A DNA stretch of 64,000 nt from Tetrahymena thermophila SB210 (taxonomy: Eukaryota; Ciliophora; Oligohymenophorea; Hymenostomatida; Tetrahymenidae). The notes below the pieces were generated by a model. It was not told the origin of the DNA. It was given only the letters and a program-made list of their open reading frames with translations, and searched no databases. Within the stretch, counting starts at the first letter, position 1. Every line of letters begins with the position of its first letter. The position numbers and the translations under genes were made by a program. The stretch lies in the NCBI RefSeq assembly GCF_000189635.1, contig NW_002476322.1:310001-374000 (forward strand), in the 5' to 3' direction. This document shows, piece by piece, positions 46,722-64,000 of this stretch.

Positions 46722-49700
46722 ATGACAGAAACTTGTTAATCAGCCAAGTTTTTTTATTTTTTAACAATTCTAAATTTAATTCTTACTGTAACAGCAGATC
46801 CAGACATATTACCCATTTAAGTAGATGGGAATGTCTATTAGATTTAAGAATAATCTGCAATAGTTTATAAAAAGCTCCCTGAAGATAAATGGAGATATAG
46901 CACTTATGACTTGTCTGGATCTATAACATAAACATATATCTTGAATGGGTTTTAAGATTTAGCTTAGTCTTTGTATTTCATTGAATAAAATAATTTTCTC
47001 AACTTCTATACATAAAACAATCTAAATTTCTAAATTATAGATTTAACTAAACTTACTAGCTAGAAACCTGATTATTTATAGATAAATTCTGTTATTTTGA
47101 ACAGTTAATGCACATAAGTTAATATGATCAGAAAATATGGGTCATACTACTTTTATATTTGTTCAAATCCCAAGATTTTTTTTTACGAATAATCAATAGC
47201 TTAATTATAAGCATCAAAAGCAAGTTAATCTTACAGCTAATTAGACATGACCTAAGATTATATTATGCTATATCCTTATGTCCTATGTTACAAAGGAAAT
47301 ATATTTACAAAGTTTGTTTCTTTGCCTTATACAATTTATAAATTGATTGATCTAAATTATGATTTATTTCTTCTTGACTACTCAACATTTTGCATAGCTA
47401 ATTTAGCAGTTGATACTTAGACATTTTCATGCAAATACAGTTATTTTGTTGGTTCTGATAAAACAAATTTGATATTAACAAAAGTTTTTGAGTCCAACAG
47501 AAAATAGCTAATTTTTACTAGGATTCTTGATAAAAAAAGTAGTTTATATATTAAATATGAAGTATTTGATGTTACAAACTTACAAATGATAAATAGGGGT
47601 TTTAGTAGTTTTGAAGATAATACAAATTCGTAGACTATAATATAATATTAAAATATAATGTATCCAAGCAAAGGATATGTTTGGAATATAGCTTACGCTC
47701 CGTAAACCAATTCAGTAATAGGTTATGAAAAAACCGTCACTTAAAACCATGAATACTTACTAGTTAACGAACCCTTTTACAATTTAAATTTCTAGCAAGG
47801 TTATACAATATTTTTGAATAAAGATAAATCAGCAAATTATCTCCTAGATATCCGAGATGCAATGAACTTTAATTGCGTATCAGGTTAACATATTCAATTA
47901 GATTTTACATGTAGTAACTCTAATTGCCCTTCCTTTTCATATCTTGATAATTCTAAAAATAAATGCTATTGTGACTCAAATGCTGTTTATTCACCTTAAG
48001 CAAACTCTTGTACTTGCTCTTATGGGTTTACTCAATCCGCTGATAGCAAATCATGCATTTGCTAAACTGGCTATTATGTAAGTTAAGGGTAGTGCTTAAA
48101 ATGCAATGCTGGTTGCTTGACTTGTAACGGTCCTTTATCAACTAATTGTTTAACATGTTAAACTGGTAAATATCTTTTTTAAGATAATTCTTGCTTAACT
48201 TGTGATTAATCTGGATAAATTCAATAAGGATCATAATGTATTTGTAAAAGTAACTATTATTAAAATGGTAATTAATGCTCTTAATGCAGTTCTAGCTGCA
48301 AAACATGTAATGGTCCTAATTTAAATAATTGTCTAACCTGTATTGATGGATTATATCTGCATCCAGATAATTCATGCTAGTCATGTGATACAAACGGATA
48401 TTTTATACAAGGTTAAAAATGTGTTCTATGTAGTGCAAATTGTTAAACCTGTGATGGATCTTCATATAATAATTGCTTAACTTGCAAAACAGGTCTTTAT
48501 TTATTTGAAAATAAATCATGCAATAATTGTGACACTAATAATCGATATTTCATAGACGGTATTAATTGTAAATAGTGTAATTCTCAATGTTAAAGCTGTA
48601 AAGGAAATCAACCAACTGATTGCCTTACATGCCCCTCAGGTAAATACATGTTTGCAGATAACTCTTGTAATAAATGTGACACCTTAAATAAGTTCTATAT
48701 AGATGGGCTTAAGTGCTTGTAATGTAATCCTCAATGCTATAATTGCCAAGGACCTCTACCTACTAATTGCCTTACATGCCCTGCAGGCAAATATTTATTT
48801 ATTGATAAATCCTGCTCAAATTGTGATACTCTAAATGGATTTTTTATCAAAGATAATTTATGCATAAAATGCCATCCTTAATGTTCAAATTGTTTAGGAT
48901 CCCTTCATACAAATTGCACATCTTGTCCTAAAGATAAATATTTATTTCCAGATAATTCTTGCTAATTTTGTAATATATTAAATGGATACTTTATAAGTGG
49001 TATAAAATGCTTAAAATGTAATGCTTAATGCTCAAATTGCTAAGGACCACTAGAGACTGATTGTCTAACATGCCCGAAAGGTAAATACTTGTTTGCAGAT
49101 AACTCTTGCTAAAATTGCAATACAAAAAATGGATTCTTTATAAGTGGAATGAAGTGTTTAAAATGTAATGCTCTATGCTAAAGTTGCAAAGGCCCTCTAC
49201 CTACCGACTGTTTAACTTGTCCTTTAGGGAAATATTTACAATCAGATCGATCTTGCTAAGATTGCGATACCTTTAATGGATACTTTATAGATGGTATGAA
49301 GTGCATTAAATGCTTTGGTAAATGCTCAAGTTGTTCAGGACCTCTACCTAATGATTGCCTAACATGCCCAGTTGGGAAATTTTTATTACCAGATTATTCT
49401 TGTTAATATTGTAATACTTAAGATGGTTTCTTTATTAGAAATACTAAATGTATTCCTTGCAATCCTGGGTGTAAAACATGCAAAGGCCCTTTGATCACTG
49501 ACTGCTTAACTTGTCCTGATTAGAAGTATTTATTTACAGATAACACTTGCCGTACTTGCTTAACAAGTAAAGGTTATTTTAAAAAAAATATATAGTGCCT
49601 TCCTTGTGATAAAGCTTGCTAAACTTGCTTTGGAGAAAATAAGAATCAATGTTTAAGCTGCAATGAAAACTCTTAACTGTTTTAAAATCTTTGTGAGTAA

Positions 49701-51011
49701 TAATACGATACTTATCATTCAAATTACTTCAATGATTAGAAGATAAAATAGACCTCATAACAATTTCAAACAGGAATATAAGTTTCATTTGCAAGCACTA
49801 TAATTTCAAGCATACTTTTGACTACGATATCATCATCAAGCTTTAGCTTAGTTGCTAATGGTCTTAATTCTTAAAAAGTTAGTTTTCATATCCTTATCGA
49901 TACAAAATTACCTGCTTAAATATATAAAGTGCTTATTCAATTTAAATCTTAATTCCCATCAATGCAATATAAATACCTAAATGCTTATGAAAGCATATTG
50001 GATCAAAGTGATACTTAATTTTAAGATTCTAGATACAAACTTGTCAACCTTTCATTTAACATTTTATAGTCATGTGGACATACCTTATTCATTTTTGCAA
50101 TCTGTTTATTTGTCTATATTATATTTTATTTTCTTGTAGAAAAATTAAATGACCAAAATAAAATACAGTAAAATTCAAGGGCTATCTACGAAAGACTAAT
50201 CAGCAACATTATTATCTAATTCTTTTAACTGGTAATTACTATGTTTGTAGTAGGTATTAATCAATAAATAAAATCTTTTTTTCTAGTAAGTGAGTCTATT
50301 GGATTAATATTAACAAAAGTCCTATTGGTAATCCTACTCGCCTCTCTTTCTATATTTTTGTTTTAATAGTAAATTTAGATGTTAAACAAATTTAAGAGGA
50401 AAGATTATGATAAACTTAGCTTTGATAAGATAAATAGAGAAAAATTATTAAATGGTGCTATTTTTGATTGTAAGATAAGAAGAAATGTTTATTTTATTTC
50501 ATTCTTCTTCGAATATATATTATTTCCAACAGTTATTATTTAACTGAGCTCTTAGTGGTTAAGTGCTTGGGTAATATCTATAACAATTACTTCTATAGAA
50601 TTAATCATATTTATTTATTATAGGCCCTTTATATCAGTGTTAACGAACATATATTCCATATTAAACAGTTTTATATGGTTAGCACTCTACATATAATACT
50701 CAATTATAAACTTCTATATCTAAAAGAATGAGTTTAGCAGTAGCTTTATAAATAATTTAGATACAATTTGCTAATCGTTTCTAATCACTTTATTTATAGT
50801 TATTGCATTGTAACCTTTATATATATTAATAAACCTGATCCTCGAAATTATAACTATTATTTAATAAATGAGAAAAATGAAATAGGATAAAAATGATATA
50901 GATAATTATTACATAAAAGAATCTTCCTAAATAGAATTAACTCAAAAAAACATGATAAGATTTAAATATAAAAAATATAAATATAATTAAAAAAAATAAA
51001 GCATGTTATGA
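46722..51011 (+). CDS. Large secreted-and-anchored cysteine-rich repeat surface protein
   Basis: A single open frame of 1429 residues. Residues 1-28 look like a signal peptide (FFYFLTILNLILTVTA). Residues 30-390 have no recognised fold. Residues about 395-1000 hold about a dozen furin/GFR-like repeats of roughly 45-50 residues with pattern C-x2-C-x3-C-x2-C-x-G-P-x6-C-L-T-C-x2-G-K-Y-L-F-x-D-N-S-C. After a spacer come about seven hydrophobic segments (from CGHTLFIFAICLFVYIIFYF on) and a basic tail. Ciliates have many such proteins at the cell surface; ligand and role are unknown. Repeats are closely similar to one another, so unequal exchange is likely. The 3' two thirds are duplicated at 56.2-58.6 kb. 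Confidence 0.82.
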
Positions 51012-53422: not shown

Positions 53423-56160
53423 ATGAAAATTCAACTTTAAATTCTACTAATCATCTTTTTTTTCCTGCGGGATATTTATTCTGGTAATTTATTTTGTAAA
53501 AATTATACTAAAATTAGCATTTTATATAGATGGTTTATTAATAAGTGATGAATTTCAGTTAGAAATGACTGCATCCTCTATCTAAGGATGGCCTAGTCTC
53601 ACAATTAAATGTACATCATTAGATTATGTTAACAGAAACAAATAGTTGATGTATGGTATTATTGATAAAATGAATAACTAAAACATTCAAAAGACTTACA
53701 CCATTACTTAACCACATTCGAGTTTGTCTGTAAGAGTAAATATCTACACAATAAGGAATTTTGCAGCTAGTGATAACATCTAAGTGTTTATGGATGGAAC
53801 TATGTAGGGTTAATATCAAAAAGCAGCCAATTAAAATCTTGGAAAAATACTTTGCCTAACAAAATATGATTACCTTTATTAATTTTATAAAAATATTACT
53901 CATTCAGCAAATACATTTACCTTAGCATTTTAATCATCTATTTCTACTTATGCATCAACAGGAGGATTTGCATTAAGTGAGCTATATATTGAAATAGATA
54001 CTTGTTATCCTGGATGCTAAACTTGCTCTGGACCTGCAAATGTACATTTTAATATAAAATAATTAAATTCTAATATAGATCTAATTTCATTTAAATATTA
54101 ATAAACATATGCAGCATTTATAAAATATAAAATATAATTTAATTAAAATTTTAAACCATAAATTATTTTATTTAATTTTAAGGGTTAAATAAAATTAAAC
54201 AAAATTTTTTTTTTATAAAAAATACCTAAAAAAATCAAATTACAAAAAAAAATTAGGAATATCTTTCATGCTGAATGAGCTTAATATTTCTTTTCTTAAA
54301 AATAAAAGCTCAAAAAATATTATTAATTTGAAAATAAAAATTTTTTTAGTATAAGGAATTAACTAATATATTTATTTTCCTAGTAATTGATTGTATTTTA
54401 TAATATTTCTTTCTAATTGCTATCCTTTAACTTTAAATTTTTACTCTTTGAGAAATGTGGCAAAATCATGCTAAAATTATATATAACTTATTGATAACAT
54501 AAATAAAATAAATTACTATTAAATTCAACTTTATAATTTTTATAATACAGAATTAATGTCTCACATGTATAACAGGAGCTGTTGCTAATAATGGTTAATG
54601 TTAATGTACAACAGGTTTTGCTTACTAAACATCTTGTGTACCTACCTGTCCTTCTGGATCAAGAGGAGAACCTACTTTATTAATATGTGTTTAAGATTAT
54701 TGTGATGCATCTGTTTGTGCTACGTGTGACAATACAACAAAATCATGCACTTCTTGCAAATCTGGTTTTTATTTACTATATAATTAATGCGTAGCTACCT
54801 GCCCTACTTATACTATTAAATAAGGAAATGTTTGCTAAGATATACTGCCATCAAGTAATTTTTAAAAAAAATTATCCAAAAAATTAACTATTCTTATTTT
54901 AGATGGGATGTATCTACTTAAAGCTCTATTTTAAACTTTTGTTTCTGAAAGTGAAATCGCTGCTGGTGGACTAACAGTTACTGGTTTAGAAGGAAACGGA
55001 TACGGTACAGTAACAAGTTCTGGAGCTTATACATCTGTCTGTAATGGAGTTTATTATATTGGTGGCTATATGTTAGCTGCAAGTAATGCATCATTTAAAA
55101 GAACTTTTACTTAACTGTAAAAATAAAATTTTATTTATATTAATAATGATATTTTTAATTTTTAATTTAAACATTTTTAGGCCTCCTCATTCTTAAATAA
55201 GAGTTGGTTTTACATTCGTAGCTATAGATAATTGGGATAAAGAATACATTTACATTAATTATGATGGTTAATAGGCTTCCAATTTCATGGTAAATGAAGC
55301 CATTACTATAGATAAATTGTGCGGATTAGAAAAATTTATGGATTTGGTTTTTTATGTAGACAAAACTGCAATACATACAAGTCCTACTCTTAATTTAGAA
55401 ATAAAGGCCACACTTTCTTTAAATTCATCATAAAAATCTTATGGTCTGAGAAATTTATTTGTAATTTTAATCCAAGTAAAAATCAAAATTATTATTATTA
55501 AATGCCAATAAAAACTCATTTTTATTTCAAACTAAAGTGTAGTTAATGGTGTATATCGTGCAATCCAACAGCATGCTTGTAATGTGATATCACACACTAT
55601 TTATACAAAGGATCTTGTTATGTAACTTGTCCAACAACTACATACATAGATTAAAATAGAGAATGTCATGATTGTGATGCTTCTTGTGCTACTTGTGGTG
55701 GCCCAAGTAAATTTCTTTAGTTTTTATATTGAAATCGATAAATAAACAAATTAATTAATTATTAGATAATACTGATTGTATTACTTGCCCACCTGGAAAA
55801 TTACTATATAATAATGGTGGTTGGACCTGTGTAAGTAATTGTCCTGCTACAAATTATTACAGTGATGGTACTAAATGTTAAAAATGTGATTCAAGTTGCT
55901 TGACTTGTTTTGGAGGTAAATTTGTTTTAATTATTTTGCAAAATTAAACATATTTTTTATTAAATAACATTAAAAGGATCTAATAATAATTGTCAAACAT
56001 GTAATGCTGGAGTTTTTTTGTATTAGAATTAGTGCTTAGCAAGTTGCCCTTCTAATACTTTTGTTAGTGGAAGTACTAAGATTAAATTATTATTGAATTT
56101 GTACATAAAAATATTTTTATTTTATTAGCCCAATGTATTAACTGCCAGATTAATTTTTCT
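53423..56160 (+). CDS. Secreted cysteine-rich protein, multi-exon, 3' end unresolved
   Basis: The start MKIQLQILLIIFFFLRDIYS is a signal peptide. The first intron is 53484-53529, the second 54042-54550, and about five more follow, each beginning GTAA or GTAC and ending in a run of T then AG. The first 200 residues look like a beta-sandwich lectin-like domain ending in CYPGCQTCSGPAN. The middle has cysteine clusters (CDASVCATCDNTTKSC), then a second beta-rich domain (GGLTVTGLEGNGYGTVTSS), then further C-x2-C repeats (CDASCATCGGPS, CQTCNAGVFLYQNQC). Likely a cell-surface or secreted protein. Past about 56090 the frame remains open but reads like non-coding AT-rich DNA, with a leftover CINCQ, before it runs into the duplicated segment. 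Confidence 0.65.
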
Positions 56161-56203
56161 TATTTAATACTAAACAATATTTTTTTTAATAGACCCTTAG
56201 ACT

Positions 56204-58459
56204 ATGATTTGCAAGCAGTGCTTAAAATGCGATGCTGGTTGCTTGACTTGTAAAGGTCCTTTATCAACTAATTGTTTAGCTTGTTAAACTGGTAAATATC
56301 TTTTTTAAGATAATTCTTGTTAGACGTGCAATCCTAAATGTTAAAGTTGTAAAGGAAATCAACCAACTGATTGCCTCACATGCCCCTCAGGTAAATATAT
56401 GTTCGCAGATAACTCTTGTAATAACTGTGACACCTTAAATAGGTTCTATATAGATGGGCTTAAGTGCTTGTAATGTAATCCTCAATGCTATAATTGCCAA
56501 GGACCTCTACCTACTAATTGCCTAACATACCCGAAAGGTGAATACTTGTTTGCAGATAACTCTTGCTAAAATTGCAATACAAAAAATGGATTCTTTATAA
56601 GTGGAATGAAATGTTTAAAATGTAATGCTCTATGCTAAAGTTGCAAAGGCCCTCTACCTACCGACTGTTTAACTTGTCCTTTAGGGAAATATTTACAATC
56701 AGATCGATCTTGCTAAGATTGCGATACCTTTAATGGATACTTTATAGATGGTATAAAATGCAATAAATGCTTTGGTAAATGCTCAAGTTGTTCAGGACCT
56801 CTACCTAATGATTGCCTAACATGCCCAGTTGGGAAATTTTTATTACCAGATTATTCTTGTTAATATTGTAATACTTAAGATGGTTTCTTTATTAGAAATA
56901 CTAAATGCATTCCTTGCAATCCTGGATGCAAAACATGTAAAGGCTCTTTGATCACTGACTGCTTAACTTGTCCTGATTAGAAATATTTATTTACAGATAA
57001 CACTTGCCGTACTTGCTTAACAAGTAAAGGTTATTTTAAAAAAAATATATAATGCCTACCTTGTGATCAAACTTGCTAAACATGCTTTGGAGAAAATAAG
57101 AATCAATGCTTAAGTTGCACTGAAAACTCTTAACTCTTTTAAAGCTTTTGCGAGTAATAATATGATACTTATCATTCAAATTACTTCAGTAATTAGAAGA
57201 TTGAATAGACCTAATAATATTTTCAAACAGGAGGTTAAATTTCTTTTGCAAGCTCTATAACTTCAAGCATAATTCTATCTATGATATCATCATCAAGCTT
57301 TAGTTTAGTTGCTACCGGCTTAAATTCTTAAAAAGTTAGCTATCATATCCTTATAAATACAAAATTACCTGCTTAAATATCTAAAGTGTTTATTGAATTT
57401 AAATCTTCATTTCCATCCATGTAATATAAATACCTAAATGCTTATGAAAGCATATTGGATCAAAGTGACACTTAATTTTAAGATTCTAGATATAAACTTG
57501 TCAACCTTTCATTTAACATATTATAATCATGTGGACATACCTTATTCGTTTTTGGAATCTGTTTATTTGTCTTTATTTCATTTTATTTGCTTGTAGAAAA
57601 GTTAAATGACCAAAATACAATCCAGTAAAAATCAAAGATCGTCTATCAAAGATTAATCAGCAACATTATTATCTAATTCTGTTAACTGGTAATTACTATG
57701 CTTGTAGTAGGTATTAATCAATAAATAAAATCTTTTTTTCTTATTAGTGAGTCTATTGGATTATTATTATAAAAAGTCATTTTGGTAATCTTACTGGCTT
57801 ATCTCTCTATAATTTTGTTTTCTTAGTAAATTTAGGTGTTAAATAAAATTAAAAAGAAAGATTATGATAATCTTAGTTTTGATGAGATAAATAGAGAAAA
57901 ATTATTAAATGGTGCTATTTTTGATTGTAAGATAAGAAGAAATGTTTATTATGTTTGTTTCTTCTTGGAAAATATATTATTTCCAACGGTAATTATTTAA
58001 CTGAGCTCTTTTTGGTTAATTGCTTTGATATTATCTATAACAATTACATCTATAGAATTAATCATTTTCATTTATTATAGGCCCTTTCTATCAATGTTAA
58101 CTAACCTATATTCTATAATAAATAGTTTTGTTTGGTTAGTATTCTATATATAATATTTAATTATAAACTTTTATATCTAAAAGAATGAATTTAGCAGTAG
58201 CTTTGTAGATAATTTAGATACAGTTTGCTAATCATTTCTAATCACTATATTTATAGTTATTGGATTGCAACCTTTATATTTATTAATAGCTCTGATTCAA
58301 TAAATTATTACAAATATTTAATAAATGAGAAAAGCAAAATAGGATAAATGTGATATAGATAATTATTTCATAAAAAAATCTTCTTAAATAGAATTAACGC
58401 ATTAAAACATGATAAGATTTAAATATGAAAAGTATAAAAAAAAATAAAGAATGTTTTGA
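56204..58459 (+). CDS. Contracted duplicate of the cysteine-rich surface protein tail
   Basis: A TGA-free frame matches the C-terminal part of the 46722-51011 gene: about seven cysteine repeats, the spacer, all the hydrophobic segments and the basic tail, with matching 3' flank. It begins abruptly at MICKQCLKCDAGCLTC with no signal peptide. The frame is open upstream to about 55950, so it could be the 3' part of the preceding signal-peptide gene. One repeat has Tyr where the paralogue has Cys (CLTYPKGEY), and many differences are silent or conservative. The lack of stops across 750 codons suggests function or a recent origin. Whether it is transcribed as a fusion or is a truncated duplicate is undecided. 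Confidence 0.6.
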
Positions 58460-58807: not shown

Positions 58808-60651
58808 TCAATCATCCCATGTTGATGCCTTTTTATTACCGTCATCAAATCCTAATGCTTATTTTAACTTTTCTTTCTTCTTTTATTCTTTCTTCTAGAC
58901 ATGAGAATATTACTTGATATGTGATTGCTTTTTAATAGCTGCTGAGTTGAATTCAATTTTTTGAATAGCTGTCTTCTTTTTATGTTATCCTTCTTGACCT
59001 TCTTTTTTGTCCTATTTTATATATTTGATTTAAAATATTTTCTATTAAATATATTTTCTTACATTTTTAAAGTTCTTTTTCTCTTGATTTTTTTATGCTT
59101 TTTGTATTTATTTTTGGAGATTTTCAAGATCGTCTAGCTCGTTTTCGTCATTTTCTTCATCTTCATTTTTAAATGATTAGTTGCTATTCTTTCTTATTTT
59201 TTCTTAGTGCTTTTCTTAGATTTTGGCTTCTTTTTTGCTTAATTGCTCATGTTTAAATAGAGGTTTTTGAGGTTCATCTTCATTATCTTATTTGAAATAC
59301 TTTTAAGATATTTTTTTGAGTTCTTCTTATTCATCAATTTAAGAATTCTTTTTCATGTATCCTTTAGAGTCATTTGTATTCTTTTTAAAGTCCTTCTTAA
59401 AGTCCTTTTTATATTCTTTACCATCATTTCCTTTTTATTTTTTAACAGTTTCATCAGCTCCCTACTTTTATTCAGGTTCTGGAAGCCCAAGTTGCTATCT
59501 CTTTTCATGTCTCTTTTCAAATTTCTTTTTAATTTTTTCTTCCTTAGTTAAATGACCTCTTTTTTCTACTTGAGTAACCTTTTCTACCAATTTTTTATTG
59601 TTAAATATTTCGAGAGATGGAACTATTTCATGGATTTCTTCAGGAGTAATATTTTCTAAGATAGGATTACTCAATAAACTAAAGTTAGACAAACATTTTA
59701 ATTATTGCAAACCTTCTAAGTTTCTTTTTAATTCAAAAAATATTATCAATAGTTTAATTTATAATGAATATTTATTTATTTACTCTTATTTCGAAATAAG
59801 ATTCTTTCCAAGATCAAGAATACGAAGCTTGCTGTTGTTTTAAAACGCATTTTCAGGGATTTCTTTGATTTGATTTTCATTTAATTTAACTTCCTTAAGT
59901 TGTTAAAGCTTTTCGAATCCTTCAATTGCCTTTTTATGAAAATGTATGTGAATATTTTAACACTTTTATAAAAAACTAATCTACCTTAATCTAATTATGA
60001 GAAAGATTAACTTTTTCTAATTAAGGATGAATAAGATTTTCTATTTTTTTAATCTTGTTATTTGATAGAACTATTTATTAGTTTTAAAAAAATATGTTTT
60101 ATTTGTGAACTTTCATATAATTTAAAGCAAATAAATTACTTAAAGTATTCAAATTAGCCAATTTAGATATTCCTGTAATAGAAGTAATTTCGTTATTATT
60201 TAAAATCAATGCCTTTAAATTTACAAGCTTATCTAATCCTTCGATTTGTTTGATCTTTTATTTACATTTTGATAATAATTTTTTATATTGTGATAAAAAT
60301 TAAATTTCTACTTAATTGTAACCAAGATTTAAAACGACCAATTATTATACTGAGACAAATTCAGGCATTTTAGTAATTGAGTTCTTGCTAAAATTGACAT
60401 TTGTCATTTCTTTAAGCTTTGCTAAAGACTTATTTATGTTAAATAATTTTTTAATCATCGCAATTATTAATAAATAAATTTATTTTTACTGAAATGTCAT
60501 CAATTTAGTTATCACTGCAATCTATTCTTTAAACCTTGCTAAAAGCACTGAAATCAAACATACTTATTTTTTGACCCTTAAAGACTACGTCAGTTATTTG
60601 AGCCTTATTAGAAATTTTTGAAGCTTCTTCAATTGTGCTAACTTTTTTCAT
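58808..60651 (-). CDS. SDS22-like leucine-rich-repeat protein with Lys/Glu-rich tail
   Basis: Exons 60490-60651, 60312-60416, 60140-60254, 59985-60070, 59784-59929, 59063-59723 and 58808-59011 sum to 1479 nt, 492 residues. Residues about 40-230 carry seven or eight 21-23-residue LRRs of SDS22 type (KQIEGLDKLVNLKALILNNN), capped by a domain with NPILENITPEEIHEIVPSLE. The remaining 260 residues are highly charged (KKDFKKDFKKNTNDSK, NEDEENDENELDDLE) and end in GFDDGNKKASTWDD. The layout suggests a nuclear or nucleolar scaffold, but no specific orthologue is recognised. Splice choices were set by in-frame TGAs inside the introns. An in-frame upstream ATG at 60735 would add a hydrophobic run and is less likely. 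Confidence 0.72.
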
Positions 60652-60892
60652 TTTGAAAACAAATAAATCTAAGTAACAAAGAAAAACAAATAAAATAATA
60701 AGATATTTTTGATATTTAATTAAATAAATTATCAAATAAATCGTATTTCTTATTGTTTTTAATCGATAGATCTAATTAGATTTATTTTTAACTCTTTAAC
60801 AAGTCACAAAGTAAAGTAGATATAGCAAACTTAAATAAGACAATCATAAAAAATATTAAAAAAAAGAATTCATTATAAATTAAAAACTATTC
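60652..60892. other. Short intergenic gap
   Basis: AT-rich DNA between the stop of the microexon gene and the start of the LRR gene; nothing recognised. Confidence 0.5.
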
Positions 60893-63800
60893 TCACCAAC
60901 CATTCAAGGGAACTAATAAATTGATTAAATACTGTCTTTTTTAAAGCTAAATGAAAAGCTATTTAAAAAATTCTTAAAAATAAGATAAAATCCATTTCTA
61001 ATAAAATAAAAAGAAAAAATATTTTATAAAGTGAAACAATTAAATTAAGAATAAAGAAATTATTATAGTAGTTAGATAGTTAGTTACTAAATATATAAAT
61101 ATATAATTTACAATAAATATTATATTAAAATATTTATTAAATTTTTATTTAATTTAATTTATAAACATATAATTTATTAGTTTTAAATAAAATTTTAAAT
61201 AAATTAAAATAAAAGTTAAAATACAATTACCTACTTCAAAATATTTCTAAAAGTATTAAATTCATTATCTTCATAAATGAGCCATTTTTCTCTTGAATCC
61301 TCATTAATCTGTTAATTCAGTCTATTTTATTTAACATATTGTGTAAAATTAAAAAATAAAATTCAATATATTTCCAATTTAAATTTGGACAATCAAACTT
61401 AAATTTATTGATTTTTTAAAATAATTTAATATGAATATTTAATTGTCAGAAAATAAAATAAAAAATTTTTTTTATATTCTTTCATTTCTTTCAAAAGACC
61501 ATTTATTTTTAAATAAATAAATAAATTATTTTAGTTTTAATTAATTTATAATAGCTAAAAAAATATTTTCTGTTATTTAAAAGGTATAATTTTTAATTAA
61601 TTTAAGGCTAAAAAAGAGTGCCTACCTAACATTATATTTAATTTTGAGGAAGGTTTAAATTTTATAGAAATTCATTTCAAAATTTTAAAGTGAATAGGCT
61701 GTAGAATTTAATTTAATAACGATAATAATAAAAATATAAATAAATATTTATATTCATTTTTAATAACTTTATTTATTTATAAAATTTATCTTAATTTAAT
61801 TTTTAAAAAAATTCTTATCATAAATATCAATTTCATTGTTTTGTAAGATATTGAAGTATTAATAGTTATTATTATATTTTATATTTTCATTTTTTGGCTA
61901 TTAAATAAAAATATTAACTTATTTATTTTTAACCAAATAGCTTTTTACATAACTGTTAAAAAAAGTATTTTTACTGATTAAAATTGATAAAAAAAGGAAT
62001 TACATTAATTTATTTATTCTGAGATTGTTCCCTTAATATCTTTCTATATTTGACCATGATTTCATAACAGCTAAAACACTATTTGAAATATTTAAAATTA
62101 AACTTTGTCATTAATTAATTTTTTTACATTCTATTTTAAATATCAGATTATCATTGATAAAAATACTTTTACACTTAAATGATTTACTCCTTCCTAATTT
62201 TAATTGAAATATTAAATTTAATGCTAAAATAAAATTATTTAAGTACTCCAAACTTTATGTCAAAACGTGATCATAAAAATATAAATAATGAATTCTTCAA
62301 AGTAATTTACTGTCTATTTTATTAAAAACCTTAATATAATAATTTTTTAAATGAAAATATTTACCGGATGCTATTCAATTCAAAAAGAAAATATCTTTTA
62401 AATTTGTATATTTTTATGAACTAATTTTACAAACTAATTATTATAAAATACATTAGACAATTACTTTTATAACAATTAATTTTACTTTCTATGTGGAATT
62501 GTTAATTTTAAAAAAGTTAACAATAAGGTAAATAGCTAGATAGTGAAAACAAAAATACCTTTCCATGCTTATTAAAATAACCAATATTTAATATTTTGTG
62601 TAGCTATAATAAAAATGATAATACTTCATCTTCCTAAATAAAAGATTTAAAAAATATGTAAATTATTTAATTAATATTTAAAATAAATTTACATGCTAAA
62701 ATCAATTGAAAAATTCTTTAAAAACTAATTATTATGAACAAAATTTACTCCCTAAATAATTTAATTAAAAATTTAAAATATTTAATAATATCAAATAACT
62801 AACAACTTACTCCCTGTTTTATAATTATTTTATCATTTAGAATCCATATAATTAATATAAGAAATATTACTGCGCACTATTATTTTAATTTTAAAATAGA
62901 TTAGATATAAATTAAACTCAAATACATGTTTACTTTCTTTTTCCAAATAAGTGATTTAATTTATTGAAATATTAAACAATAATTTACTTCCTACAATTTA
63001 AATAAATATTTCAGCATTATTCAAACATTTTTATGATAATAAATTAAAATTTTACTAACTATTTTTTATAAATGTCATCTTAATAGATTAAATTTGTAAT
63101 TAATTTACATTATCCCACTAATTTTTATAAAATATTTATTTAATCTTAAATTAATTAAATATTTAATTTTACGTTGTTCCACTTTAGATGTAAATAAAAA
63201 AAATATTTTTTTGTAAAATTTGTAATTATTTTACTATGCCCTTTTTCTATTTAAATAACAATTTAGGTTGTATTAATTTTATTTATAAAATTTACCAAAC
63301 ATCTTAAATTAGCTTCATCCACAGCATTTTGCTTTATTTTCTATTTAAATTATTTTATTTTTTAATAATAAAGTACTTATTAAATTATCTACTTAAAGCT
63401 CTTCAAAAGCCTTGGAGTCCATGCTAATATTCTATAAAAAAAATGAATCTTAAACATTTTAATAATATAAGCAATTTACTGCAAGCTAGGTTTTAGTAAA
63501 TGATATTTTTCTTTTCAGTTGGGTAGGTGTTTTTTGACTCAAATTTATAGATGGTAAATTTTCATTTTGATCTTGTATTTATATCTTTTTTTCTGGTTTT
63601 GTTGGTAGTCTATAACCTTCTTCTTTATTGCTAAGAATTTTCATTTTAAAATAAATTTTTATATAATTTTTTTAATCAATTTATTTAGGTACTTCTATGA
63701 AAATCCTCTAAGAGTATTTAATTTCAAATTTTATTCAGGCGAATTTGATAATTGCTCTTAATCATTCTTCTTTTGCGATTGGCTGTATGTTTTACTTCCT

Positions 63801-64000
63801 CTTCTATTCTAAAGAAGATTTTCCTTATGAGGGTATCTGTGACTTTGTGAGAGTGGATTATCTTGAAATTAAGATTAGTTGTAATTTGTTTAGGAAGGTT
63901 GATAGTTTTTTACTACAAAGGGATTTAGGTATGAAGTATGGTATCTAGAAGATTTAGGTGTGTTACCACTTAAATTTTTAGTGGATTGATAAACTGAACC
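60893..64000 (-). CDS. Microexon-rich gene of unknown function (5' partial)
   Basis: Runs in from the right edge. Long exons: 63693-64000, 63480-63630, 63393-63431, 63296-63340, 62559-62633, 62004-62078, 61231-61308 and 60893-60997 (stop TGA 60893-60895). Between them at least 16 microexons carry 1-4 codons each, listed in the next entry. The model gives 318 residues. The visible N-terminal 140 are disordered (TPKSSRYHTSYLNPFVV; KEEGYRLPTKPEKKIQIQDQ). The middle reads WNNWDNLEKCAGGH, then EDEVLSFLLQLHKILNIGYF, HPTFGEGNCFSCYEIMVKYR, and the end is helical (KWILSYFQEFFKQLFIQLQK). Phases agree throughout. Introns are 45-115 nt apart from two longer ones (233 and 695 nt), and the 695-nt one may hide more exons. 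No family is recognised. Confidence 0.6.
62128..63246 (-). other. Array of 16 microexons of 3-12 nt
   Basis: On the minus strand, acceptor-microexon-donor triplets recur every 55-115 nt or so. Nine exons are one codon: 63056-63058, 62988-62990, 62934-62936, 62811-62813, 62749-62751, 62693-62695, 62486-62488, 62311-62313 and 62128-62130. Four are two codons: 62871-62876, 62365-62370, 62247-62252 and 62188-62193. Two are three codons: 63173-63181 and 63109-63117. One is four: 63235-63246. Each has AG before and GTAA, or once GTAC, after. Every length is a multiple of three, and several (GGA twice, TGCGCA, CATCCG) are GC-rich islands in about 85-90% AT DNA. One 75-nt exon (62559-62633) interrupts the array. 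Confidence 0.6.

Follow-up and report, generated by a model that had tools for sequence, protein, structure and literature searches.

Here we identify, on the minus strand of a 64,000-nt stretch of DNA (the whole of the sequence analysed, hereafter the window), a chain of 19 predicted exons between positions 63246 and 62128, each of which is only 3, 6, 9 or 12 nt long. Ten of these micro-exons comprise 3 nt, four 6 nt, four 9 nt and one 12 nt, and together they spread 34 consecutive codons over a segment that is cut by 20 introns. The array lies far beyond chance at the shuffle and control levels tested. The explanation that we favour, at a probability of roughly 0.7, is that it belongs to a protein-coding ciliate gene in which intron definition leads to constitutive joining of the micro-exons. 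If transcribed as predicted, the gene would represent an extreme new form of micro-exon gene architecture, in a lineage without a described case among the literature matches listed.

Results

Long open reading frames appear in the AT-rich window under a code with TAA and TAG for glutamine and TGA as the stop codon, from which we infer that the DNA is that of a Tetrahymena-like ciliate. All splice statistics were drawn from the 64,000-nt window itself. A two-strand gene parser was trained on the genes located below position 60,700; internal exons had to span at least 8 codons, with a lower minimum of 17 nt for terminal exons. The signals that it learned were a GTAA-type donor and TAG or AAG acceptors, with 47-64 nt as the commonest intron class (31/68 introns); the donor and acceptor tables include 15 pseudo-counts from a prior consensus. 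Alongside this phase-aware parser a frame-blind chain model was used, the splice-site model of which was trained outside the array region. It permits introns of 40-120 nt with pieces of 1-15 nt between them, and is blind to frame and coding character. The micro-exon posteriors in Table 1 are conditional on the two array ends and on exon and intron lengths of 1-15 nt and 40-120 nt, respectively; they are given at two settings, pE 0 and pE 2.

The array is 1,217 nt long and its 20 GT-AG introns measure 49-70 nt, with successive micro-exons starting 54-79 nt apart. An initial annotation of this DNA had proposed at least sixteen exons of 3-12 nt, nine of them single codons, at intervals of 55-115 nt. 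Our analysis bears out the array and raises the exon count to 19; the single-codon exons and the regular spacing are there as described, but the number of such exons is ten and the range of distances for the 19 is the one given above. The parse places each of the 20 array introns between two codons, in line with the phase 0 first assigned to them; elsewhere in the window, 30/68 introns are in phase 0. If introns are independent, an all-phase-0 array has a probability of (30/68)^20 = 7.8e-8. The array also connects coding exons as had been claimed, running in phase from the 39- and 45-nt exons into the 75-nt exon (Table 1). Its removal as a single intron keeps the frame open as well, and each of the 19 micro-exons can be skipped in frame, which is not true of the 4-nt exon downstream.

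The segment 62633-62559, previously taken as one middle exon, is better parsed as two 9-nt exons, GAAGATGAA and CATGGAAAG, that lie around a 57-nt intron (62624-62568). This preferred reading was returned at two of three phase-aware penalties and at one of six fixed-end settings, and also by the free-end chain; a single 75-nt exon, which is open in phase, is a possible alternative. At pE 0 the posterior is below 0.65 for 4/19 micro-exons (62936-62934, 62695-62693, 62488-62486 and 62370-62365), and the acceptor of micro-exon 6 (-14.6) is the weakest among the 20 array acceptors. When the exon at 62078-62004 is scored alone, the second frame is slightly better (+3.6 vs +1.1).

Table 1. Predicted exons in and around the micro-exon array. 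Posteriors are given as pE 0/pE 2.
Feature	Positions	Strand	Length (nt)	Sequence or product	Support and remarks
Upstream coding-like exon	63693..64000	-	308		Cut by window edge; parser exon at 3/3 penalties
Coding exon	63480..63630	-	151		Frame score +10.5 vs -10.6 and -31.6; 165 nt if start is ATG 63644
Coding exon	63393..63431	-	39	NISMDSKAFEELQ	Phase-aware parse; donor at 63392
Coding exon	63296..63340	-	45	KIKQNAVDEANLRCL	Phase-aware parse; array begins at its donor
Micro-exon 1	63235..63246	-	12	KKGI	Posterior 0.91/0.97
Micro-exon 2	63173..63181	-	9	WNN	Posterior 0.98/1.00
Micro-exon 3	63109..63117	-	9	WDN	Posterior 0.89/0.98
Micro-exon 4	63056..63058	-	3	TTA, L	Posterior 0.92/0.99
Micro-exon 5	62988..62990	-	3	GAA, E	Posterior 0.88/0.95
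Micro-exon 6	62934..62936	-	3	AAA, K	Posterior 0.37/0.73; used at 0/3 phase-aware penalties
Micro-exon 7	62871..62876	-	6	TGCGCA, CA	Posterior 0.98/0.99
Micro-exon 8	62811..62813	-	3	GGA, G	Posterior 0.77/0.80
Micro-exon 9	62749..62751	-	3	GGA, G	Posterior 0.88/0.93
Micro-exon 10	62693..62695	-	3	CAT, H	Posterior 0.37/0.78; used at 0/3 phase-aware penalties
Micro-exon 11	62625..62633	-	9	GAAGATGAA, EDE	Posterior 0.94/0.94; alternatively first part of 75-nt exon 62633-62559
Micro-exon 12	62559..62567	-	9	CATGGAAAG, HGK	Posterior 0.78/0.96
Micro-exon 13	62486..62488	-	3	AAA, K	Posterior 0.61/0.76
Micro-exon 14	62431..62433	-	3	TTT, F	Posterior 0.90/0.92
Micro-exon 15	62365..62370	-	6	CATCCG, HP	Posterior 0.26/0.69; GC 67%
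Micro-exon 16	62311..62313	-	3	ACA, T	Posterior 0.99/1.00
Micro-exon 17	62247..62252	-	6	TTTGGA, FG	Posterior 0.72/0.94
Micro-exon 18	62188..62193	-	6	GAAGGA, EG	Posterior 0.68/0.73
Micro-exon 19	62128..62130	-	3	AAT, N	Posterior 0.93/0.99
Coding exon	62004..62078	-	75	CFSCYEIMVKYRKILREQSQNKQIN	Phase 0; array ends at its acceptor; 2/3 penalties
Micro-exon 20	61949..61952	-	4	TTAT	Alternative 19-nt exon 61952-61934, equal downstream phase
Last coding exon	61887..61897	-		CC AAA AAA TGA	Stop 61889-61887; 12/12 3'-end runs

Although the frame-blind chain has no access to the reading frame, the pieces that it selects are multiples of three. With free ends it comprised 16 exons at pE 0 and 19 at pE 2, its loosest setting, and across three settings 16/16, 18/18 and 19/19 exons were divisible by three, for which the random-length expectation is 3^-16 = 2.3e-8 at 16 exons and 3^-19 = 8.6e-10 at 19. 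With fixed ends, the loosest of six settings gave 16/16 and the stricter ones, in which one 14-nt piece was included, gave 9/10 (three settings), 12/13 and 13/14. In shuffles run alongside the free-end chain (1,000 per setting) the share was 0.31-0.35. Multiples of three hold 96-97% of the posterior mass. The score of the 16-exon chain at pE 0 is 23.0, as against 16.2 for the best of 14,000 Markov shuffles (order 1-3) and 4.1 for the opposite strand. Elsewhere in the window, 164 control segments reached a top score of 7.2 at pE 0, and 16/47 of their pieces were divisible by three.

The same periodicity is seen in a model-free count of the pattern AG-Nk-GTA[AGT] across the 1,217-nt array, which yields 10 occurrences at k=3, four at k=6, four at k=9 and two at k=12, with 0-2 at each other k within 0-15. 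For k=1-15 this places 20/27 occurrences at multiples of three (binomial 1.8e-5). On the remaining minus strand the pattern occurs 0.6-1.3 times per 1,217 nt for each k, and the 10 AG-NNN-GTA[AGT] sites of the array compare with 0.9 expected from that strand.

When the array was shuffled and submitted to the phase-aware parse, the real score was reached in 0/200 cases at each of two settings, and shuffled arrays gave at most 7 micro-exons vs 16-17 in the real array. The number recovered depends on the intron penalty. At the strictest penalty the exons of 15 nt or less numbered just 8 here and the parser closed the gene at 62297, so that the second half of the array was lost, and 16-17 of the 19 micro-exons were regained only with cheaper introns. 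At a penalty of -3 the parser also placed 20 exons of 21 nt or less elsewhere in the window, 7 of which are divisible by three; at the strict penalty, exons of 15 nt or less made up 0/78 of those elsewhere.

Joined together, the micro-exons form a stop-free stretch of 102 nt that reads KKGIWNNWDNLEKCAGGHEDEHGKKFHPTFGEGN. Its GC content is 37%, compared with 14% in the introns between, and 0/20,000 random same-size picks from the region matched this value. The coding score of the joined frame is +21.1, vs +11.8 and -21.2 in the other two. These features bear on recursive splicing, in which a ~1.2-kb intron would be taken out stepwise, ~56 nt at a time, and the 3-12 nt pieces lost along with it. 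Such a process would account for AG..GTA sites at a regular 54-79 nt and for a frame that stays open when the array is absent. It does not, however, require multiples of three, yet these make up 19/19 pieces at the loosest setting and 16/16 at pE 0. The pieces also have a raised GC content and an in-frame coding score, and we consider recursive splicing very unlikely. Tandem duplication was examined as an origin of the array and rejected, the maximum intron-intron similarity of 26.5 being equal to that of shuffles (means 13.0 vs 11.6), and the repeats reported by TRF (12 rows) were all short and AT-rich, with periods of 7-20.

The predicted product combines a polar N-terminal part with a Cys/His-rich segment, KKGIWNNWDNLEKCAGGHEDEHGKKFHPTFGEGNCFSCYEIM, that could bind a metal ion. 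Homology queries used the predicted protein in both versions, i.e. with the 75-nt exon and with the two 9-nt exons. No match reached the curated cut-off in Pfam, and a PDB search gave no significant match (best E 0.11, 0.27 and 1.5). In viral and prokaryote contigs, collections not meant for ciliates, 6 and 20 stretches fitted peptide patterns, none of which was confirmed, and plasmids, likewise a collection not meant for ciliates, gave no relative up to E 0.1. A search of Rfam returned no structured-RNA match up to E=1. That the Pfam, PDB, viral and prokaryote searches gave no relative would suit decayed or never-transcribed DNA, be it a pseudogene or a chance AG/GTAA pattern in AT-rich sequence. 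Against this, chance is excluded at the level of the shuffles and controls, and the array has retained intact splice sites and an intact frame, which decay would not have kept; the prospect of such an origin is accordingly slight.

Ciliates eliminate short germline segments, and this precedent admits a reading of the spacers as internal eliminated sequences of germline DNA, lost in macronuclear development, rather than as introns. TA or longer pointer repeats are expected at the boundaries of such sequences. Here a shared sequence of 2 bp occurs at only 1/20 junctions and 0-1 bp at the other 19/20, so that boundary direct repeats such as TA are not a feature of the array, and the spacers start with GTA and end with AG like the window's introns. 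The chromosome-breakage motif does not exceed chance, with 3 matches at up to 3 mismatches vs 5.2 expected. We regard this reading as exceedingly unlikely.

The signals of the array match those of the window's other introns, as expected of GT-AG spliceosomal introns. Whereas the GT and AG ends themselves are imposed by the construction of the chain, the splice-site scores do not differ between the array and the 68 other introns of the window (Mann-Whitney p=0.41). Of the latter, 54% are 45-75 nt long and 10% are 100-135 nt long, close to the size that an array intron would have after one micro-exon was skipped.

Discussion

Single-codon exons are usually deemed rare exceptions because they leave almost no exon for the splicing machinery to recognise. 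Exon size would be no obstacle, however, if splice sites were paired across each short intron, that is by intron definition. According to this model, twenty introns of ~56 nt would be removed independently of exon size, and the default mRNA would probably hold all or nearly all of the micro-exons. The initial annotation had likewise put forward intron definition, and as the likely mechanism it is supported by the short introns and by the ordinary character of their splice sites.

In the accessible text of an RNA-seq study of T. thermophila, 1,474 alternative splicing events are reported, of which 832 are intron retention and 139 are cassette-exon events, and intron definition is inferred for this organism from the excess of retention over cassette events (PMC3274533). 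Together with the ordinary splice sites of the array, the intron definition proposed for T. thermophila leads us to favour constitutive inclusion, with skipping as its main rival. The same study accepted a junction only with 8 bp or more on either side of it (PMC3274533) and would therefore tend to miss such small exons; its accessible text mentions "microexon" a single time, where it denotes a mapping option (PMC3274533).

As the main rival, regulated or stochastic skipping would make this a combinatorial micro-exon gene that yields peptides differing by single residues, in the manner of the schistosome micro-exon genes (MEGs). All 19 exons are symmetric and in phase 0, so that any subset could be skipped in frame, and an array uniformly in phase 0 is improbable by chance (7.8e-8 if introns are independent). 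Nevertheless, the array splice sites score as do those of other introns, only 10% of the 68 have the length expected after skipping, and cassette events make up a minor share of alternative splicing in T. thermophila as far as the accessible text reports them (139/1,474; PMC3274533). Furthermore, the many W, C, H and G residues of the peptide point to a folded segment, one that would tolerate deletions poorly. We therefore hold combinatorial skipping to be unlikely. Peptide variation of this kind had been suggested when the array was first noticed; the premise that the exons can be skipped in frame holds for all 19, whereas the variation itself is unsupported by the cassette counts and the splice sites, which do not refute it. 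Were it nonetheless to occur, a free-living unicellular eukaryote would possess an independently evolved micro-exon gene beyond those of the flukes, with 19 consecutive symmetric exons, each of one to four codons, that could yield up to 2^19 peptides from a single locus and a variable Cys/His-rich segment, a prospect that we rate as rather improbable.

The occurrence of phase 0 at 20/20 array introns compared with 30/68 elsewhere argues against the insertion of introns in random phase. Uniform phase 0 could reflect selection for exons that can be skipped or the recruitment of micro-exons within an ancestral phase-0 intron.

Constitutive joining of the micro-exons, our preferred reading, would still leave the gene with an architecture that resembles known systems. 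The accessible text on schistosome and tapeworm MEGs describes consecutive micro-exons that are divisible by three and can be as small as one codon, and that trouble gene finders and read aligners (PMC7653826, PMC10399815). A structural rule given there for tapeworms asks for at least seven exons, at least half of them micro-exons of less than 70 nt and divisible by three, in a run of at least four (PMC7653826). By this rule 21/26 exons of the predicted gene qualify, namely the 19 micro-exons and the 39- and 45-nt exons, or 21/25 if the gene starts at the ATG at 63644, and the consecutive run is 19 at pE 2 and 16 at pE 0. The comparison to schistosome micro-exon genes made at the outset is apt as regards architecture: runs of micro-exons that are divisible by three and include single codons. 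In contrast to MEG exons, the sizes of which are given as 3-36 bp (PMC10399815, in the text accessible), none of the 19 array exons exceeds 12 nt and ten consist of a single codon. The gene is also that of a ciliate, and the libraries searched yielded no relative of the protein. A run of 19 exons that are all 12 nt or less is not described for MEGs in the accessible portions of these two papers (PMC7653826, PMC10399815).

Many tiny internal exons in uniform phase are also a property of the bicycle genes and megacycle of aphids, a family of putative effectors in which, by the portion of the source available, nearly all of these exons are in phase 2 (PMC9168663). The present case differs in that all 20 array introns are in phase 0 and one gene is seen rather than a gene family. 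Ultra-short exons that are spliced in have been reported as a 1-nt exon of Arabidopsis APC11, a 3-bp exon of Drosophila homothorax and plant exons of 15 nt or less (PMC4674806, PMC7392893, PMC8831610); as presented in the accessible text, those are single or two adjacent, whereas the array has nineteen in a run. No ciliate micro-exon array was found in the open-access literature among the matches listed; the initial annotation likewise knew of no described ciliate gene with such a run.

If the prediction is true, ten single-codon exons among nineteen would put pure intron definition to a stringent test in nature. The gene would serve questions of the minimum size of an exon, of how frequently exons are lost and of how twenty splicing events are ordered within 1.2 kb, and a host that is Tetrahymena or a close relative would be experimentally tractable. 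Arrays of this kind are easily missed under an 8-bp junction rule such as that stated in PMC3274533, and similar genes may thus be lacking from ciliate annotations.

Gene limits and neighbouring loci

At the 5' side, the parser enters the gene from beyond the window edge at 3/3 penalties, the cost of entry at the edge being below that of a start codon. No intron of the 25 scored has weaker sites than the one that joins the 63693-64000 exon onward (donor -7.8, acceptor -14.8). Inside this predicted first intron is an in-frame ATG (63644-63642, minus strand) that overlaps the TGA of the upstream frame as ATGA. The gene may enter from past the window edge via the weak intron or start at this ATG. 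The 63693-64000 exon may be part of the micro-exon gene or of a separate gene, and a separate transcript could begin at the ATG.

At the 3' side, the best parse passes from 62078-62004 through the 4-nt exon at 61952-61949 to the stop at 61889-61887, with two 51-nt introns. This decode, in which the upstream exons and the array were supplied as joined, tests the 3' end only. The 4-nt exon was best at 4/4 penalties when one-codon exons were permitted, and when exons had to contain at least 4 or at least 8 codons the parser read through to 61949 with the stop unchanged. The most likely end of the gene is at 61887. An extension to 60893 had been proposed originally, but the best parse stops before it and, of five stretches tested beyond 61887, 4/5 were below zero as coding in all frames, the fifth (61321-61235) being mildly positive.

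The region 61235-61321 (minus strand, LNQQINEDSREKWLIYEDNEFNTFRNIL), which lies between the micro-exon gene and a leucine-rich repeat (LRR) gene, is isolated and coding-like with a score of +3.3, and may represent a missed exon, a pseudogene or a small gene of its own. The LRR gene itself (58808-60651, minus strand; Pfam LRR_4, E 6e-28) lies downstream of the micro-exon gene and has 6 predicted exons, and LRR proteins are among the best 60 of 129 matches in PDB. Fusion of the two genes, which the parser produced at looser intron penalties, was rejected on account of the early stop. On the plus strand, the adjacent predicted genes at 46722-50731 and 53565-58459 encode cysteine-rich repeat proteins with hydrophobic C-terminal parts. 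The two share long stretches that are near-identical by eye, which suggests tandem duplication or gene conversion.
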